From Bacteroidales bacterium (GTDB taxonomy: Bacteria > Bacteroidota > Bacteroidia > Bacteroidales > GCA-2748055): a stretch of DNA of 64,000 nucleotides. The stretch spans positions 1 to 64,000 of the forward strand of contig JARGFP010000023.1 in assembly GCA_029210585.1 (NCBI GenBank), written 5' to 3'. The stretch's first letter is position 1, and each line of letters begins with the position of its first letter. The translations under genes and the position numbers were made by a program. A model generated the notes under the pieces. The model was not told the origin of the DNA. It saw only the letters and a program-made list of their open reading frames with translations, and ran no database searches. This document shows, one piece after another, positions 17,729-44,365 of the stretch.

Positions 17729-18805
17729 ATGTATGACCTGAAAGAATTTGTTGTACTGGGCCTGATGTCGGGAACTTCACTCGACGGTGTTGACCTGGCG
17801 CTCTGCAGGTTCACCGAAGCGGGGGGTGCATTTCAATATCACCTGATCGGTGCTGAAACCATTACCTATCCCCGTTACATGAAGGAAAAGCTGGATGATG
17901 CTTTTAACATCAGCGCAGCAGGATTGCAAGACATTGACCAGGAACTGGGTGCTTTTTATGCAGAACAAATCCTTGGCTTCCTGGACAGGCACCATCCCAG
18001 GCCCCTGTTGATCGCAAGTCATGGACACACTATACGCCATCAGCCCGACAAGGGGATTACCATGCAGATTGGTGATGGAACAATAATCGCAAAAAAAACA
18101 GGGATCACTGTGATCAATGATTTCAGGACACAGGATGTTTCCAAGGGCGGACAGGGTGCTCCGCTTGTGCCTGTTGGCGACCGGGACCTGTTCGGAGATT
18201 ACCGTTATTGCCTGAACCTCGGCGGTATTGCCAACGTTTCGTTTGATGACAAGGGAATCCGGATCGCCTGTGACATCGCTCCCTGCAACATGGCATTGAA
18301 CACCATCACCTCCTGGATCGACATGGAATATGACTGGAACGGGGCACTTGCTGCACGGGGCGAGGTGCAGCCGGATTTGCTGGAGCGACTGAATGCCCTT
18401 GCATATTACCGGTTGCCGGCGCCAAAATCCCTGGGAAAGGAATGGTTCCTGAGAACGTTCCTGCCGGAGATCAGGCAGACTGAAATCACTATTGAGGACC
18501 TGCTCCGGACGGTGAATGAACACATTGCCGACCAGGTGGCATCATTTATCAATATCAATCATCCAGACGGATCGAGCATGCTTATCACCGGGGGCGGCGT
18601 ACACAACAGGTTCCTGGTCAGCCTTCTCAAAAACAAATGCCAGGCTGATCTGTTTATACCTGGTGAGAAACTAATAGATTTCAAGGAGGCAATCGTGTTT
18701 GCATACCTTGGTCTGCTGAGGCAACTTGGAAATACCAACGTGCTGGCTTCGGTGACAGGGGCAGACTCAGATACCTGTGCAGGAATCATTCATCATCCAA
18801 ACTAA
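17729..18805 (+). CDS. anmK: Anhydro-N-acetylmuramic acid kinase
   Basis: AnmK phosphorylates 1,6-anhydro-N-acetylmuramic acid, released by lytic transglycosylases, to MurNAc-6-phosphate for recycling. The 358-residue protein shows the family motifs GLMSGTSLDGVDLAL, ASHGHTI, VINDFRTQDV, GQGAPLVPVGD, NLGGIANVSF, DIAPCNMALN and ITGGGVHNRFL. ATG 17729 (MYDLKEF) is chosen over TTG 17723. It lies between the M23 peptidase and the alcohol dehydrogenase gene with gaps of 6 and 7 bases. Confidence 0.96.
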   Translation: MYDLKEFVVLGLMSGTSLDGVDLALCRFTEAGGAFQYHLIGAETITYPRYMKEKLDDAFNISAAGLQDIDQELGAFYAEQILGFLDRHHPRPLLIASHGHTIRHQPDKGITMQIGDGTIIAKKTGITVINDFRTQDVSKGGQGAPLVPVGDRDLFGDYRYCLNLGGIANVSFDDKGIRIACDIAPCNMALNTITSWIDMEYDWNGALAARGEVQPDLLERLNALAYYRLPAPKSLGKEWFLRTFLPEIRQTEITIEDLLRTVNEHIADQVASFININHPDGSSMLITGGGVHNRFLVSLLKNKCQADLFIPGEKLIDFKEAIVFAYLGLLRQLGNTNVLASVTGADSDTCAGIIHHPN

Positions 18806-18812
18806 TTTTTTT

Positions 18813-19955
18813 ATGGAAAATTTTATTGCGTACAATCCCACAAGACTTCACTTTGGCAAAGGAGTCGTCAATGATCTTGGAATAGCTGCGAAAGCACTCG
18901 GAAATAAGGCACTCCTGGTATACGGAAAAGGAAGTGTCCTGCGGAATGGCAGTTATGACGATACCGTCAGGCAGTTGCAGGAAAACAATATCTCGGTCCT
19001 TGAATTCAACGGGATCAAGCCCAACCCGGTGGTGACCGATGTGGACGAAGCAGCACGTCTCGGGATAGCCGAAAAGGTTGATATGGTTGTAGCCGTGGGA
19101 GGTGGAAGCGTGATCGACTCAGCAAAGATCATTGCATTGTGTATCGCAGATGAGGTCAGCGGTTGGGATGTCATGACCGGCAGGCACACCCCCGTTTCCT
19201 CCAAGCCCCTGGTTGCAGTGCTCACCCTTGCAGCAACAGGAACAGAGATGAACCCGGTGGCAGTGCTTCAGAATCATGATACTGAACAGAAAATCGGTTT
19301 CAGACATAAACTGATGTTCCCGGTACATTCCTTCCTGGATCCTACCTATACACAAAGTGTCCCGTCCGATTACACGGCATATGGCATTGTCGACCTCGTT
19401 GCGCACTCCCTCGAAGCCTGGTTCGGTGCAGGGCAGGCCAGTCTCTCTGACAAATTCGTGATATCGATCATCCGGGAAGCCATGGAAGTGGGTCCTGAGC
19501 TGATGAATGACCTGGACAACTACGATCACCGTGCACGCATCATGTGGGCAGCAACCAATGCACTCAACGACACCACCATGCACGGAAGGGTTTCCGGTGA
19601 CTGGGGTGTGCATGCACTGGGGCATACGCTTTCCTATTTATACGATACGGCACATGGCGCGACCTTATCTGTTTTCTACCCGGCCTGGATGCGCCGGCTT
19701 GCAGAAAAGCAGTCTGAACGTATTGTCATGTTGGGAAAAGCACTGTTTAATGCAATGACTGCAGAAGAGACCATCGCCGGATTTGAAGCATTTTTCAATA
19801 CGCTTGGTGCTCCTGTCAGGGCCCAGGAGTCAGGTATCCCGGATGACAAAAAGAAAGAGATCCTCGCCTTGATGAAGAAGAACCGCGCCAGCGGGATCCA
19901 TGTGCGCCTGGATGAAGACGACCGCAAAAAAATCGCGGATTTGATCTTTGACTGA
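18813..19955 (+). CDS. Iron-containing alcohol dehydrogenase
   Basis: Group III metal-dependent alcohol dehydrogenase of 380 residues, close to butanol dehydrogenases (BdhA type). The NAD(P)-binding motif AVGGGSVIDSAK and the iron-site motifs DLVAHSLEAWF and GVHALGHTLSYLYDTAHGAT (Asp plus three His) are intact. It would reduce aldehydes or oxidise alcohols in fermentation; the substrate is not predictable. ATG 18813 (MENFIAYNPTRLHFG) is the family-like start. It is the last gene of the M23-anmK operon. Confidence 0.92.
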   Translation: MENFIAYNPTRLHFGKGVVNDLGIAAKALGNKALLVYGKGSVLRNGSYDDTVRQLQENNISVLEFNGIKPNPVVTDVDEAARLGIAEKVDMVVAVGGGSVIDSAKIIALCIADEVSGWDVMTGRHTPVSSKPLVAVLTLAATGTEMNPVAVLQNHDTEQKIGFRHKLMFPVHSFLDPTYTQSVPSDYTAYGIVDLVAHSLEAWFGAGQASLSDKFVISIIREAMEVGPELMNDLDNYDHRARIMWAATNALNDTTMHGRVSGDWGVHALGHTLSYLYDTAHGATLSVFYPAWMRRLAEKQSERIVMLGKALFNAMTAEETIAGFEAFFNTLGAPVRAQESGIPDDKKKEILALMKKNRASGIHVRLDEDDRKKIADLIFD

Positions 19956-20189
19956 GTATTTAACAGTAACGTTCCGCAGGATCCGGCGATGAATACAGCC
20001 GTGTCAGGAATCTTACAGAATTTTCGGTGAAAAGGCAGGGCATCTGTGATCATGCCCGGAGCAATGCAGGTATATTCAGGGCCTGAGGTTATTTACGTTG
20101 ATAAGACCTGGTGCAATGTAACTTCTGCATGTCAGGGAGACAATGACCGGGGTATTCCGGAATTACCGATCTGGCTATAGCACATACCA

Positions 20190-20314
20190 AGAAAAAGGGT
20201 GTTCCTGGCGGAACACCCTTCCCTTTTCAAACTACTAACTAAAACTACCAACTAAACTACTAACTAAAACTACTATCTTAAAATTTTTTCCTGCTACCGT
20301 TGTATCAAATTTTA
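20190..20314 (-). ncRNA. Predicted small RNA with UUAGU-rich repeats
   Basis: On the minus strand a textbook promoter (TTTG at 20350-20347, 19-base spacer, TATTTTTG at 20327-20320) predicts a start near 20314. The transcript would contain about 50 bases of imperfect 12-13-base repeats (TTAGTTAGTAGTT-like, 20278-20229). It ends at a perfect 11-bp hairpin (AAGGGTGTTCC/GGAACACCCTT, loop GCCA, 20220-20195) followed by TTTTTC. No start codon or credible ORF exists inside; the repeats put TAG in many positions. Promoter, body and terminator together support a noncoding RNA of about 120 bases. Confidence 0.65.
20195..20220. terminator. Strong hairpin terminator (better on minus strand)
   Basis: Perfect 11-bp stem AAGGGTGTTCC/GGAACACCCTT around four bases. 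Minus-strand transcription meets TTTTTC straight after the stem. Plus-strand transcription meets only CCCTTTTC, so the main use is probably the minus-strand sRNA. Confidence 0.8.
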
Positions 20315-20319
20315 TACCA

Positions 20320-20350
20320 CAAAAATAATATGCTTTTTTGAATTGACAAA
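20320..20350 (-). promoter_or_regulatory. sRNA promoter (TTTG-N19-TATTTTTG)
   Basis: Minus strand: TTTG (20350-20347), exactly 19 bases, then TATTTTTG (20327-20320). Both elements are exact matches to the Bacteroidota housekeeping promoter, the best match in the window. Confidence 0.75.
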
Positions 20351-20726
20351 TTAAATTAGTGTTAAGTTATGTTAAATTATATTAATAAATATTTTTAGCA
20401 TATAAACCCCTCTATTGTATGAAGGTTTAACGCAAAAAGGTAATATTTGTTGCGATACCCCCTAAATTTTAACCCAATAAAAAATATTCTTTTTTTTGTA
20501 TAATACTTATTATCCTAACTGAAAGGCAAATGATGTTTTTAAATAGAAATGCTTGTTTCTTCATTCTAAAAATGATTTCTTTAAACTTTATATTTTTGAG
20601 ATATGACATATTGAGTGCAGGAACCGGATGTTTGATCGCTGCGGGTCATCACAAAACCAGCGGGGAATATCTCCGGATTCACAACAACTGGCACTAATTT
20701 ATTCACATAGCAAATACATATGTACG

Positions 20727-22427
20727 ATGAAAAGAATGATTTTTATTTTTATGGCAGCTGGATTGTTGCAGGTGCACACCGAGATCCGTTCATGTACCAA
20801 TTTCCTGGTCACCCCGGGTGCATCAGTAAGTGGCACATCCATGATCACCTATGCTGCGGATGCGCATGTATTATATGGTGAACTGTATTTCACTCCTGCC
20901 GCAACCTATCCTGAGGGTACGATGCTGAGCATCTATGAATGGGACACCAACAAATTTCTCGGGCAGATCAAGCAGGTAAGGAAGACCTACTCGGTGGTTG
21001 GCAACATGAATGAGCACCAGCTGGCCATTGGTGAGACCACCTATGGCGGACGGAGCGAATTGCGTGACACCACGGGGATCATCGACTACGGAAGCCTCAT
21101 ATATATTACCCTGCAGCGGGCCAAAACCGCGCGGGAAGCGATCCATATCATGGCTGAGCTGATGGATACCTATGGATATTACAGTTCGGGAGAATCCTTT
21201 TCCATTTCTGATCCGCATGAAGTGTGGATCATGGAACTGATAGGGAAAGGCACGAAGATGGTCACCAAAGGCAGGGGTAAAAATGCCGTGACCTACAATG
21301 CCAATAAAGGCGCCGTATGGGTGGCCGTAAAAATACCCGACGGGTATATCTCCGGTCATGCCAACCAGTCCAGGATACAGCAATTCCCGCTGGATGATCC
21401 TGAAAACTGCCTTTACGCGGAAGATGTGATTGATTTCGCGCGTGAGATGGGCTATTATGAAGGCAGCGATAAAGATTTTAGTTTTTCCGACACGTATGCA
21501 CCTGTGGATTTTGGCGGGGCCAGGTTCTGCGACATGCGGGTTTGGTCCTTCTTCAAGGAGGTAAACGACGACATGGACCAGTATTTTTCCTATGTAAAGG
21601 GAGAAAACCTCGGCAACCGGATGCCTTTGTATATCAAGCCCAACAGGAAGATATCCAACTACGACCTGATGAACTTCATGCGTGATCACCTGGAAGGCAC
21701 GGAACTAAACATGCGCAAGGATGCCGGTGCAGGACCGTTTGAACTCCCCTATCGCTGGAGGCCCCTTTACTGGGAGGTGGATGAAAAAACCTATTGCAAT
21801 GAGCGGGCCACTGCCACGCAGCAGACCGGTTTCTCTTTTGTCGCTGAAAGCCGCGCGGGAATGCCCGATATCATCGGTGGTATCCTATGGTTTGGTGTGG
21901 ATGATGCAGCTGCCACTGTCTATGTACCTATGTACTGCGGGATGACCGAGGTGCCTTTCAGCTATGCAGTTGGCAACGGCGACCTGCTCACCTATTCAGA
22001 AAGTTCGGCCTTCTGGACCTTCAGCTTTGTTTCAAACTTTGCCTACCTCAGGTACAACATCATGATGGAGGATGTGCGCAAAAAACAGGATGCGCTGGAG
22101 AAAGGATTCATTGAGAAAGTACAACAGGTGGACAAGAAAGCGATGGCATTGTATGAAGAGGATCCGGCAAAGGCACGCGACTATATCACGAACTTTTCTG
22201 TAAATACAGGAGATCATACCGTCGCTGTCTGGAAGGAACTGGGACAATACCTGCTGGTGAAGTACATTGACGGAAATGTGAAGAAAGAGGAAAACGGCAG
22301 GTTCCTGCGCAATGACTATGGGTATCCTGTGAGTCCTGATCAGCCCGGCTATTCCGAAGAATGGAAGCGCAATGTTGTGAAAGACACGGGAGACAAGCTG
22401 CTGGTGCCCGGTGACGAAGGGCATTAG
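20727..22427 (+). CDS. Secreted C69-family dipeptidase
   Basis: Peptidase family C69 (PepD-like) protein of 566 residues. These are N-terminal-nucleophile hydrolases whose catalytic cysteine is exposed by processing; here a signal peptide (MIFIFMAAGLLQVHT) is followed by RSCTNFLVTPGAS, with the predicted nucleophile at about Cys23. Further family motifs are GNMNEHQLAIGETTYGGR, ALQRAKTAREAI-like LQRAKTAREAIHIM, and SFSISDPHEVWIMELIGKG. It probably cleaves dipeptides outside the cytoplasm. An upstream in-frame ATG at 20628 would bury the signal peptide, so 20727 is used. A -7 element lies at 20591-20598. Confidence 0.9.
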   Translation: MKRMIFIFMAAGLLQVHTEIRSCTNFLVTPGASVSGTSMITYAADAHVLYGELYFTPAATYPEGTMLSIYEWDTNKFLGQIKQVRKTYSVVGNMNEHQLAIGETTYGGRSELRDTTGIIDYGSLIYITLQRAKTAREAIHIMAELMDTYGYYSSGESFSISDPHEVWIMELIGKGTKMVTKGRGKNAVTYNANKGAVWVAVKIPDGYISGHANQSRIQQFPLDDPENCLYAEDVIDFAREMGYYEGSDKDFSFSDTYAPVDFGGARFCDMRVWSFFKEVNDDMDQYFSYVKGENLGNRMPLYIKPNRKISNYDLMNFMRDHLEGTELNMRKDAGAGPFELPYRWRPLYWEVDEKTYCNERATATQQTGFSFVAESRAGMPDIIGGILWFGVDDAAATVYVPMYCGMTEVPFSYAVGNGDLLTYSESSAFWTFSFVSNFAYLRYNIMMEDVRKKQDALEKGFIEKVQQVDKKAMALYEEDPAKARDYITNFSVNTGDHTVAVWKELGQYLLVKYIDGNVKKEENGRFLRNDYGYPVSPDQPGYSEEWKRNVVKDTGDKLLVPGDEGH

Positions 22428-22903: not shown

Positions 22904-22977
22904 GGACCAGTAGCTCAACTGGATAGAGTACCTGACTACGGATCAGGAGGTTGGGGGTTCGACTCCTCCCTGGTTCA
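22904..22977 (+). tRNA. tRNA-Arg (anticodon ACG)
   Basis: Complete 74-base cloverleaf. The acceptor stem pairs GGACCAG with CTGGTTC (one G-U), with discriminator A. The D arm carries GCTC...GAGT, the anticodon stem is CCTGA/TCAGG with loop CTACGGA (anticodon ACG), the variable loop has five bases, and the T arm is GGGGG TTCGACT CCTCC. CCA is not encoded. ACG normally becomes ICG and reads CGU/CGC/CGA. Confidence 0.97.
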
Positions 22978-22991
22978 CTTTGTAAATCCTG

Positions 22992-23026
22992 AAAGCCCCG
23001 TTATCATTGCGATAGCGGGGCTTTTT
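22992..23026 (+). terminator. Terminator of rplS-tRNA-Arg
   Basis: AAAGCCCCG and CGGGGCTT form the base of a long stem that extends through TTATC/GATAG with one wobble pair, around ATTGC. TTTTT follows. Confidence 0.88.
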
Positions 23027-25092: not shown

Positions 25093-25270
25093 CTGTTTGA
25101 TTTATAATTTAAAGTGGACGGATCAGTCTGCCAAAGTTGTATGGCGGACAGGTGGAATAAAAATAACAGAACAATCAGTTATTGGAAAATATATTCGCAA
25201 GATTTGGACAATAATCCACTAAATTGCATGCATGACCTCTTATTTTTGCATTACGAACACTAACTACCGA

Positions 25271-27256
25271 ATGATGAGAAATATTTTAATGATCTGCCTG
25301 TTCATGGCAGGCATGAGCAGTTGCAACGACAACGTTAACACAACCAACGGCAGTCAGGGCTATCCTATTTCTGAAGTCCCCTTTACCAGCGTACATGTGG
25401 AGGACCAATTCTGGAGCCCCAGGTTCCACACGCATAAGGAAGTCACCATCCCCTCTGCCTTTCAGAAATGCGAGGAGACCGGCAGGATCGACAACTTCAA
25501 GGTTGCAGGAGGTTTACAGGAAGGCGTATACAGGGGAGTGTTTCCCTTCGACGACAGCGATGTGTACAAAATCATCGAAGGGGCATCCTACCTCCTGCTG
25601 ATCGAACCCGACGCCGAACTGGAGAAATATATTGACACCATCATCAGCTATATTGCTGCTGCCCAGGAACCCGATGGGTACCTGCACACCTGGCGGACCA
25701 TCGATCCAACACAGCCTCCCACCACCTGGTCGGGCACCGCGCAACGCTGGTCTGACATTGGCGGAGGTCATGAATTGTATAACATGGGACATTTCTACGA
25801 AGGGGCCGTGGCGCACTACAGGGCTACGGGCAAGCGAACGATGCTGGATGTGGCCACGAAGAATGCAGATTTGATCGCTGAAACTTTCGGACCAGGAAAG
25901 ATCGAAACTGCCCCGGGGCACCAGGAAATCGAAATCGGGCTCGTCAAGTTATATAATGTAACCGGAGAAAAGAAATACCTGGATCTTGCCAGGTTTTTCC
26001 TCGACATGCGGGGACAGGAAGATATCCGGGGAAGCCTTTACGGTCCCTACAGCCAGGACCACCTTCCTGTGACAGAACAGGATGAGGCCGTCGGACATGC
26101 GGTCAGGGCCGGCTACATGTATACGGCCATGGCCGATATCGCATCATTGCAGGGGGATACTGCCTACATCGAAGCCCTTGAACGGATATGGAACAATGTG
26201 GTCAACAAAAAGATCTATCTCACAGGGGGCATTGGTGCAAGGCATGCAGGGGAAAGTTTTGGTGACAATTACGAACTCCCCAATTTCACGGCCTATAACG
26301 AGACCTGTGCGGCAATATCCAATATCCATTGGAATTACAGGATGTTCCTGCTGACAGGTGAAGGAAAATACATGGATGTCCTGGAGCGCACCCTCTACAA
26401 TGGCATGCTGGCAGGCATTTCACTCACCGGGGACCACTATTTTTATCCGAACCCGCTGGCATCTGACGGCGAGACCCCGTTCAACATGGGATCCTGCACC
26501 AGGTCAGAGTGGTTTGACTGCTCCTGTTGTCCATCAAATAACGCCAGGTTCCTTCCTTCGGTACCCGGATATATATACGCCGTTAAGGATGACGCATTGT
26601 TCGTGAACCTGTTCATCGGGAATGAAGCAGACCTGGTTATTGACGGGAAGAAGCTTACAGTCAGGCAACAAACAGAATATCCATGGAAGAACATCGTGAA
26701 TATTACACTGGAACCGCGGAAAAGCAGTTCATTCACGCTCCTGATCCGGATTCCGGGCTGGGCCAGGAATGAAGTGATGCCCGGTGACCTGTACCATTAC
26801 ATGGACCAGGTGGATGGTTCCGTGATGATCAGGGTCAACGGAGAGGAAACAGGTTACGAAACAGACCAGGGATATGCTGTACTGGAACGTGAATGGAAAA
26901 AAGGTGACCGGGTGGAAGTACAATTCCCAATGGAAGTCAGACGCGTGGCTGCCAAAGTAAAAGTGGAAGCCGACCGTGGAAAAACGGCTATTGAATTGGG
27001 TCCCGTGGTCTATTGTGCAGAGGAAGCCGACCAGTCATTTGATATTTTCAAAGTGACGGGGATTCCAGAAGATGCTGCGTTTACAAGGGATTTCAACGCC
27101 CAATTGCTGGGCGGTGTGCCTGTTGTCAAGACAATGGTTCCTTTGCAGGCTGATCCTGGTGCCGCCGCAACAATGGTCGAGCTCAGCCTGGTTCCGTATC
27201 ACCTCTGGAGCAACAGGGGAGTAGGAAAGATGAGCGTCTGGTTTCCTGCAAAATAA
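25271..27256 (+). CDS. GH127 beta-L-arabinofuranosidase lipoprotein
   Basis: GH127 (DUF1680) enzyme of about 662 residues that releases beta-L-arabinofuranose, using a zinc-bound cysteine as nucleophile in characterised members. The key residues look intact: Glu and Cys in YNETCAAISN (near 344) and the cysteine cluster DCSCCPSNNAR (near 416). The N-terminus is a lipoprotein signal (MICLFMAGMSSC), so it is probably anchored in a membrane. ATG 25271 (or 25274) follows a -7 element TATTTTTG at 25241-25248; the in-frame ATG at 25232 is upstream of the predicted transcript start. It is divergent from GH51. Confidence 0.92.
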   Translation: MMRNILMICLFMAGMSSCNDNVNTTNGSQGYPISEVPFTSVHVEDQFWSPRFHTHKEVTIPSAFQKCEETGRIDNFKVAGGLQEGVYRGVFPFDDSDVYKIIEGASYLLLIEPDAELEKYIDTIISYIAAAQEPDGYLHTWRTIDPTQPPTTWSGTAQRWSDIGGGHELYNMGHFYEGAVAHYRATGKRTMLDVATKNADLIAETFGPGKIETAPGHQEIEIGLVKLYNVTGEKKYLDLARFFLDMRGQEDIRGSLYGPYSQDHLPVTEQDEAVGHAVRAGYMYTAMADIASLQGDTAYIEALERIWNNVVNKKIYLTGGIGARHAGESFGDNYELPNFTAYNETCAAISNIHWNYRMFLLTGEGKYMDVLERTLYNGMLAGISLTGDHYFYPNPLASDGETPFNMGSCTRSEWFDCSCCPSNNARFLPSVPGYIYAVKDDALFVNLFIGNEADLVIDGKKLTVRQQTEYPWKNIVNITLEPRKSSSFTLLIRIPGWARNEVMPGDLYHYMDQVDGSVMIRVNGEETGYETDQGYAVLEREWKKGDRVEVQFPMEVRRVAAKVKVEADRGKTAIELGPVVYCAEEADQSFDIFKVTGIPEDAAFTRDFNAQLLGGVPVVKTMVPLQADPGAAATMVELSLVPYHLWSNRGVGKMSVWFPAK

Positions 27257-42165: not shown

Positions 42166-42569
42166 ATGCAAAAGAATTATTTGAAGTATGATGAGGGTTT
42201 CATGATTTACCCGTTAAATGAAAGACCAAATTACAAAGAATTTGGTTGTGCAAAAAGTGGTACACTTTTTAGTGTTTCGATTCAGCTTAAAAAAATCATC
42301 TGTACTTACAAAGAAAGTTTTTTTATAATTGATTTGGTGAAACTCTAAGAATAATTTACTTTTGGCCCTTCTTTTGAATAAAAGAATCCTTTTCCGTTTA
42401 GTATCAAAAGCTGTCCTTTAAACATGATTAAATGATGAGTGCGCCTGAAACTTGTTTTTTGCAGGATTGCATAATGATGATGCCTGGCATTTATTTCTTT
42501 GCAAATATATGTCCCGGGCAAACCGCACCATCATTAAATGAAAATTAACTATCCTACAATCACTGATCT
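42166..42569. other. 404-base intergenic region upstream of nhaA
   Basis: No credible gene is seen. It holds two perfect hairpins: AAAAAGTG (42252-42259) / CACTTTTT (42263-42270) around GTA, and TTCTTTT (42369-42375) / AAAAGAA (42380-42386) around GAAT. They may be terminators of now-silent transcripts or protein sites. TTTCTTTG near 42494-42501 is a 7/8 -7 element for nhaA. Confidence 0.4.
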
Positions 42570-43964
42570 ATGGCTAACCAAATGAAAGAAGAGAGCATTA
42601 TTTACAGGCTGATCACTTCCCCTTTGCAGAGATTTGCAAAAATTGAGGGTTTGGGGGGTATCCTGTTATTAGCAGCAACTGTTCTCGCCATTTTCTGGGC
42701 AAATTCGCCCTGGGGAAATGTGTATGAATCAATCTGGCAGTACAAAATTGGAATTGATGCGGACACATTCCATCTGAAAAAACCAGTCATCCTATGGATC
42801 AACGACGGACTGATGGCCATCTTCTTCTTTCTGATAGGACTCGAAATCAAGAGGGAGCTGATTATTGGTGAACTGAACACCCCGAAGAAAGCTGCATTAC
42901 CGATTTTTGCAGCGGTGGGTGGAATGATACTCCCGGTAATGTTTTACACTCTGCTCAATAAAAACCCGGATGCCGCACAAGGGTGGGGAATTCCAATGGC
43001 AACAGATATCGCTTTTTCCCTTGCCATAATCAATGCCCTGGGAAAGCGGGTACCCGTGGCTATCAAGGTGTTCCTGACAGCATTCGCGATCATTGACGAC
43101 CTTGGAGCCGTTCTTATCATTGCGCTGTTTTACAGTGAGGATCTGCATGTCAATCTTTTGCTGATCTCGGTGATCCCCCTACTTATTCTTTTTATCGCAA
43201 ACCGGTTCGGTTATTATTCAAGATTCGTCTGGATTGTTCTTGGAATCGCCATCTGGGTGCTCTTTTTAAAAGGCGGGATTCACCCAACCATTGCAGGTGT
43301 AATTATTGCATTTACCATTCCGATAAAAAGGAAGATTGAGGTAAAGGAGTACAGGAATACACTTACTGAACTGGGCCAAAAGCTGGATAAATCAACAGCA
43401 GCTGAGTCAATGATTCTTACACATGAGCAGGCAGAACAGATACACGAGCTGGAACAGGTCATACGGAAGGTCCAGTCGAGGCTCCAGGAGCAGGAGCATA
43501 AGCTGCATGGACTGGTAACTTTTTTCATACTGCCCCTGTTTGCGCTGGCAAACGCCGGGGTTGTATTCAATATGGAAGAAGGGCTTGACTGGCATATTGC
43601 GATGACGATTGCTGTTTCCTTGTTTGTCGGAAAGTTTATAGGTATCCCGCTCTTTACATGGATCGGGATTAAACTAAAACTTACGGAATTACCCACCGGA
43701 ATTAAATTTTCAAAGATATTTGGCGTAGGACTGCTGGCAGGTGTAGGGTTTACCATGGCAATATTTATTGCCAACCTGGCTTTTTTGAACCAGCCCATCC
43801 TGACAAACTCAGCCAAGATCGGTATCCTGATCGGCTCTTTCTGTGCAGGCGTCATAGGCTATGTTGTTGTGCGGTTTTCCACGAGGGAATATGCTGAAAA
43901 ACTAAAAGAAAAAGAAGATAGCGATGGTAAAATAACTGGTCCTGACATCAAAGAAGACCTCTAA
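42570..43964 (+). CDS. nhaA: Na+/H+ antiporter NhaA
   Basis: Inner-membrane antiporter of 464 residues that exports sodium in exchange for protons. The ion-binding double aspartate is present in FAIIDDLGAVLIIALFY near residue 172. Other signatures are LEIKRELIIGEL, ATDIAFSLAIINALGKRVP and LLAGVGFTMAIFIANLAF. It is longer than Escherichia coli NhaA because of a charged, helical insertion at about 255-310 (KEYRNTLTELGQKLDKSTAA, LEQVIRKVQSRLQEQEHKL), which occurs in many Bacteroidota forms. It is a single gene without an nhaR-like regulator nearby. Confidence 0.96.
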   Translation: MANQMKEESIIYRLITSPLQRFAKIEGLGGILLLAATVLAIFWANSPWGNVYESIWQYKIGIDADTFHLKKPVILWINDGLMAIFFFLIGLEIKRELIIGELNTPKKAALPIFAAVGGMILPVMFYTLLNKNPDAAQGWGIPMATDIAFSLAIINALGKRVPVAIKVFLTAFAIIDDLGAVLIIALFYSEDLHVNLLLISVIPLLILFIANRFGYYSRFVWIVLGIAIWVLFLKGGIHPTIAGVIIAFTIPIKRKIEVKEYRNTLTELGQKLDKSTAAESMILTHEQAEQIHELEQVIRKVQSRLQEQEHKLHGLVTFFILPLFALANAGVVFNMEEGLDWHIAMTIAVSLFVGKFIGIPLFTWIGIKLKLTELPTGIKFSKIFGVGLLAGVGFTMAIFIANLAFLNQPILTNSAKIGILIGSFCAGVIGYVVVRFSTREYAEKLKEKEDSDGKITGPDIKEDL

Positions 43965-44083: not shown

Positions 44084-44365
44084 ATGAACATTTTTTGCGC
44101 AAAATTGAATTATGACACACAGGAAGAGGATCTCAGATCCGCTTTCGAAGCGTATGGAGAAGTCAGCTCTGTAAAAATTATTATGGACAAATTCTCCGGC
44201 AGGTCAAAAGGGTATGGTTTCGTTGAAATGACAGATGACTCAGAAGGTCAGGCAGCCATTGACGGACTTAACGACACTGAACTGCAAGGCAGAACCATCG
44301 TAGTTAAGAAAGCAAATCCCAGGAACGACGATCGTCGTGGCTCCAGGGATGGTGGTTACAGGTAG
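44084..44365 (+). CDS. RRM-domain RNA-binding protein
   Basis: Single RNA-recognition-motif protein of 93 residues. RNP2 (NIFCAKL) and RNP1 (KGYGFVEM) are present with the usual aromatic residues, and the short C-terminal tail is basic (NPRNDDRRGSRDGGYR). Bacteroidota lack typical Hfq in many lineages, and RRM proteins are thought to act as RNA chaperones there; in Bacteroides one affects regulation of polysaccharide use. The gene has its own promoter with a 5' UTR hairpin and ends at a strong terminator. Confidence 0.93.
   Translation: MNIFCAKLNYDTQEEDLRSAFEAYGEVSSVKIIMDKFSGRSKGYGFVEMTDDSEGQAAIDGLNDTELQGRTIVVKKANPRNDDRRGSRDGGYR

Follow-up and report, generated by a model that had tools for sequence, protein, structure and literature searches.

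A locus on the minus strand of the window (the whole stretch of 64,000 nucleotides that was analyzed), at 20350-20189, belongs by all sequence criteria to a conserved and undescribed family of small RNAs (sRNAs) in environmental Bacteroidales. Its promoter, repeat tract and terminator are kept together in at least 18 of the 28 genomes of the host's family, and this conservation places the locus above chance. The repeat core is complementary to the stretch preceding the start codon of many envelope and sugar-uptake genes, suggesting that the RNA probably lowers their translation. The features concerned are as follows.

20320..20350, minus strand: predicted promoter, one of two such arrangements in the 64-kb window
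20350-20347, minus strand: -33 element TTTG, read from the sequence
20327-20320, minus strand: -7 box TATTTTTG, a perfect TAnnTTTG, 19 nt past the TTTG
20278..20315, minus strand: predicted start (about 20312-20315, as judged by the -7 box), then a variable 5' spacer
20228..20277, minus strand: repeat core GATAGTAGTTTTAGTTAGTAGTTTAGTTGGTAGTTTTAGTTAGTAGTTTG, three units of 12-13 nt and partial ones
20266-20257 and 20241-20232, minus strand: repeat unit TAGTTAGTAG
20254-20245, minus strand: repeat unit TAGTTGGTAG
20189..20220, minus strand: intrinsic terminator hairpin and U-tail, AAGGGTGTTCC-GCCA-GGAACACCC-TTTTTCTT, with compensatory changes in 9 of the 14 stem pairs among 18 homologues
18777..19955, plus strand: iron-containing alcohol dehydrogenase (ADH) gene, convergent with the sRNA (Pfam PF00465)
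20628..22427, plus strand: peptidase C69 gene, divergent from the sRNA (Pfam PF03577)
25259..25266, plus strand: candidate target site ACTAACTA, 4 nt before the ATG at 25271
44084..44365, plus strand: RRM protein gene of 93 aa, the genome's only RRM gene (Pfam RRM_1, E 4e-20)

An earlier note on this DNA had described a promoter, imperfect 12-13-base repeats and a terminator on the minus strand, and every part was found at its place. The arrangement TTTG-N17..23-TAnnTTTG, the housekeeping promoter of Bacteroidota, occurs only twice in the 64 kb, at the sRNA and at 42333 on the plus strand, so the sRNA promoter may fairly be called the best in the window when judged by the Bacteroidota consensus. 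Scored with the E. coli consensus, the same promoter was ordinary, at 9/12 one of 15 such matches (13.7 expected). The plus-strand site (42333-42364) lies about 200 nt upstream of a gene at 42570 that resembles a Na+/H+ antiporter by eye. In the sRNA gene, a spacer of about 40 nt separates the -7 box from a 50-nt tract made of repeats resembling UUAGUUAGUAGUUU. The self-identity of this tract at a lag of 25 nt was 88%, compared with 77% for the best of 5000 shuffles. The repeat motif lacks GGA and takes up no structure in the centroid fold. The terminator, rightly called perfect before, consists of a GC-rich stem of 12 pairs followed by UUUUU, and the transcript predicted from the sequence is about 125 nt long. 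No ATG reading frame was found in this transcript; among the 18 homologues the longest ATG frame had 14 codons. Rfam covariance models gave nothing at the gathering threshold, and nothing at E up to 1 for 20150-20420. As the ADH gene is convergent and the C69 peptidase gene divergent, the unit does not belong to the UTR of either gene. A tRNA-Arg (acg) at 22904-22978 on the plus strand, followed by a strong terminator at 22991-23025, was also observed in the window. Promoter, intrinsic terminator, lack of an ORF and a conserved single-stranded seed, the general marks of a trans-acting, seed-pairing sRNA, are all found in the sequence. With the conserved promoter and repeats, the compensatory changes in the terminator, the absence of a frame and the empty Rfam search, the description as an unannotated sRNA without an ORF holds.

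The family was searched with a 21-mer from the repeat core, with two mismatches allowed; 18 of the 28 genomes matched, and a reversed control gave 1 match. The match in G012 is an mRNA leader and not an sRNA. G001 holds a shortened sRNA that the 21-mer pattern missed, so taking it for an sRNA-free genome was wrong. The sRNA lies past the 3' end of the ADH gene, convergent with it, in 15 of the 16 family genomes in which that end was read, and in a seventeenth ADH genome (G016) it shares a contig with ADH, at a distance of about 50 nt. G005 is the only ADH-bearing family genome of the 17 without the sRNA there (16/17 have it beyond ADH). Across the 18 aligned sequences, hardly any change is seen in the -7 box or the repeat core, and the letters of the spacer and the hairpin drift. 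The TAnnTTTG box and the TGGYATA that follows it are the best-kept part of the 5' region, the 5' spacer is divergent and variable in length, and the number of repeat units ranges from 1 to 4.

Outside the family, the repeat core was not found at one mismatch among 393 genomes of the order. An exact scan of one genome each for about 85,000 species revealed related repeat-plus-terminator layouts in Rikenellaceae and in Algibacter amylolyticus. In two Rikenellaceae MAGs (L187 and L191), a TATATTTG promoter box, UUAGUUAGUAGUUUUAGUUAGU and a strong terminator were observed upstream of a tRNA-like sequence, and this locus appears to be an independent gene of similar type. In A. amylolyticus (L179:5550-5700), the same repeat is followed by a terminator-like hairpin, apparently past the end of a coding region. 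A match in Calothrix (L185) was rejected as probably due to chance, with no evident terminator after the repeat.

The host genome (G000, 4.6 Mb) contains three repeat-plus-hairpin loci besides the one in the window. The exact 13-mer TAGTTAGTAGTTT has 7 occurrences in it, at these four loci only, and its reversed control string had 0 matches. Each occurrence is inside a repeat tract directly ahead of a GC-rich hairpin, and the hairpin sequences are unrelated. The paralog on contig C25 (L002, G000:C25:94355-94424) stands directly after a sigma-factor-like coding sequence and is also kept in G003 (L065); this repeat tract with its hairpin is possibly a 3'-UTR-derived sRNA.

Several matches to the repeat in relatives (L028, L040, L041, L043, L061, and L062) were not sRNAs: read on the other strand they are mRNA leaders, in which the complement falls on the start codon or close to it, and the host genome was therefore examined for leader complements. 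The whole host genome has 32 ACTAACTA sites. The four sRNA loci account for 11 of these, and about 11 others lie in sense, 9-26 nt upstream of an ORF's ATG. The leader statistics were obtained from 1.64 Mb (35% of the host genome) with simple longest-ATG gene calls (1154 genes). The 29 complementary 9-mers had 29.7% of their genomic occurrences within 30 nt before starts, where 0.8% was expected and 300 composition-matched permutations gave at most 8.1%. Outside the sRNA loci, 8 complements of at least 12 nt were found in the 1.64 Mb, 6 of them in called leaders. One match of at least 12 nt (C50:157170) precedes an ATG inside an ORF whose start may have been called too early. A 14-nt perfect complement of the repeat, ACTAACTAAAACTA, was observed at G000:C83:173818, outside the called leaders. 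This concentration of long complements in leaders supports the earlier suggestion that the repeats may be repeated seeds for mRNA targets.

Genes with a leader match of at least 8 nt more often code for exported-like proteins by a crude signal-peptide rule (31/42 vs 496/1110, P 0.0002). According to Pfam, they include three SusC-like TonB-plug/CarboxypepD proteins (L126, L133, and L138), T9SS-sorted proteins, fasciclin lipoproteins, LamG proteins, and carbohydrate enzymes. The gene at 25271 in the window codes for a GH127 beta-L-arabinofuranosidase, and its 8-nt complement is weak on its own. The 13-nt site before a Gfo/Idh gene, one of the top targets, is absent from most orthologues.

These results make it rather likely, with leader statistics that come from one genome, that the RNA is a trans-acting sRNA whose repeated, interchangeable seeds block translation initiation. 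Its own housekeeping-type promoter would give a trans-acting transcript ending at the intrinsic terminator, in which the repeats would be several interchangeable seeds. Each seed would pair over 9-14 nt with a ACUAACUAAAACUACC-like stretch directly before or touching the start codon. The ribosome of Bacteroidota does not use Shine-Dalgarno pairing, and seed pairing would block its loading. The targets would be biased to exported and envelope proteins, namely SusC-like transporters, T9SS-sorted proteins, fasciclin-domain lipoproteins, and glycan enzymes, and the paralogous repeat tracts ahead of hairpins may raise the dose. We infer that the RNA is transcribed, where its transcription starts, that it pairs with leaders in the cell, and that it represses rather than activates.

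The leader complementarity might instead be a by-product, since Bacteroidota leaders that are A-rich and G-poor for reasons of translation would match any U-rich, C-free RNA, and the sRNA would then do something else. Leaders in this phylum are known to be rich in A at -11 to -14 and at -3 (PMC6847099). The leaders of the host are also A-rich, and for this reason the strictest null kept the position-specific leader composition. Short matches are equal to the composition null, as expected for a by-product, with 7-8-nt matches not clearly above the leader-composition expectation. Leaders with a match of at least 9, 10, 11, and 12 nt numbered 25, 10, 7, and 6, respectively, vs composition means of 9.1, 2.7, 0.9, and 0.3 and maxima of 16, 7, 6, and 2. 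Permutations of the tract that preserved its period reached the observed count in 26/3000 cases at 11 nt and in 1/3000 at 12 nt, and by these the counts at 9-10 nt were not unusual. What argues against a by-product is that the position-specific and the first- and second-order Markov nulls gave only 0.1-0.3 leaders with a 12-nt match vs the 6 observed, and that the reversed tract gave 1. Dinucleotide-shuffled tracts were rejected as a null for the complements and replaced by the position-specific nulls and the period-preserving permutations; their counts were misleading, probably because shuffles hold more distinct k-mers. When duplex energies of the tract with 1145 start regions were scanned (RNAduplex), the sRNA could not be told apart from controls, because loops let every sequence pair. 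The motif is also present in the leaders of genomes that lack the sRNA, which again suits a by-product: ACTAACTA stands before ATGA at 16/74 sites in G005 and 10/84 in G010. The proportion is typically 10-30% of sites in sRNA-lacking genomes and other families, and 15/32 in the host. Read as a test of coevolution across genomes, these counts showed no clear link to the presence of the sRNA, and leader enrichment was weak in G001, which carries the shortened copy. The leader motif is therefore independent of the sRNA, and older or more general than it. Taken together, we consider a by-product somewhat unlikely.

It is also conceivable, if rather unlikely and a little more so than a by-product, that the RNA binds a protein or acts as a decoy, its repeats being equivalent single-stranded sites for the RRM protein at 44084 or another protein that the RNA titrates or delivers. 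Consistent with this, the primary sequence of the repeat is conserved and its copy number varies, and the window encodes the only RRM protein of the genome. In addition, the RRM protein RbpB binds the single-stranded seeds of the sRNA FopS in B. thetaiotaomicron (PMC11697453). However, an RRM gene was detectable in 10 of the 18 sRNA carriers and in 5 of the 10 other family genomes, indicating no association. The 8 carriers without a detectable RRM gene include several incomplete genomes, though also G009 (98% completeness), and conversely G005 and G010 have an RRM gene and lack the sRNA. This distribution does not bear out the RRM protein, put forward earlier as a possible partner, as an obligatory one. 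A pure protein site would, moreover, not predict long complements before start codons. Another RNA-binding protein may still take this role, and protein binding and leader pairing by the sRNA are compatible. It is very improbable that the locus is no sRNA, with a hairpin that is only the convergent ADH terminator and repeats that are neutral or a DNA-level element: the hairpin follows the ADH stop codon directly in several genomes and could serve both strands, but the promoter box on the minus strand is conserved to the same degree as the repeats, the tail is rich in T on that strand, and the paralogs at unrelated loci and the Rikenellaceae copies keep the order of repeats and then hairpin.

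The reading as a seed-pairing repressor has its closest counterpart in FopS, a family of paralogous sRNAs in B. thetaiotaomicron whose 5' seed pairs at susC start regions and blocks translation, a block relieved by RbpB (PMC11697453). The two share a TTTG/TAnnTTTG (sigma-ABfr) promoter, here TTTG-N19-TATTTTTG with a conserved box, and a short, mostly intergenic sRNA with a single-stranded 5' seed antisense to the translation initiation region. Both also have several paralogs per genome with differing terminators, here the four loci of G000, and the predicted targets of the present sRNA likewise include SusC-like transporters. However, FopS is about 65-70 nt long and has one seed, UUUUUCAUAGUAUUAGAUUUAAGG, over the start codon, and the present sRNA, at about 125 nt, has 1-4 UUAGUUAGUAGUUU repeats matching the stretch before the start. 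The FopS R1' seed GTGTTTTTCATAGTATTAGATTTAAGGTTAACAAA, with core TTTTTCATAGTATTAGATTTAAGG, could not be found in the host genome with as many as 2 mismatches allowed. As far as its anatomy shows, the present RNA works like FopS, but it is not a FopS member, because its seed has another sequence, comes in repeats, and matches a stretch next to the start codon instead of covering it. The view that no described family has this layout was thus too strong, as FopS shares the promoter type, a single-stranded 5' anti-leader seed, and the variable terminator, though neither the repeats nor the seed sequence.

The FopS core was matched in 28 of 148 Bacteroidales genomes, in about 20 families of the classification used, and the seed is apparently spread wider than the Bacteroidaceae named in PMC11697453. 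It also had 23 matches in viral contigs, where the copies are mostly ordered as TTTG/TAnnTTTG promoter, seed, and variable terminator. The present repeat core was absent from viral contigs, and a phage origin like that reported for FopS was rejected on this ground. In one viral contig (L266:5080-5200), UUAGUUAGUAGUAG was observed immediately ahead of a FopS seed and hairpin, a hybrid of both anti-leader sequences and possibly a link between FopS and the present repeat sRNA.

Other known sRNAs resemble the present one in part. Sponges of the CsrB/RsmZ type also repeat short motifs within one sRNA, with GGA in hairpin loops for CsrA; the present motif differs in lacking GGA and in being unstructured. 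GibS of B. thetaiotaomicron is likewise intergenic and pairs at translation initiation regions through single-stranded 5' seeds, but it has two distinct seeds, another promoter class, and no repeated unit described (PMC7366714). BatR of the same species also pairs at translation initiation regions and thereby represses cell-surface genes; it differs in its length of 154 nt, its structured 5' region, its central hairpin, and the lack of a described repeat tract (PMC10861873).

Few sRNAs of Bacteroidota are understood, and the described ones found in the literature are from Bacteroides. The present family is an undescribed one from other Bacteroidales that appears to follow the logic of FopS with a different, repeated seed. 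It is tentatively possible that Bacteroidota carry lineage-specific anti-leader sRNAs that set the output of envelope and glycan gene classes through a shared leader motif, with the number of repeats as gain control. Such a set might comprise FopS in some families, the repeat-seed RNA in another, and the similar genes of Rikenellaceae and Algibacter. The general question of whether these bacteria, which have no Shine-Dalgarno sites, direct sRNAs against a common leader motif becomes testable at named sites and targets.
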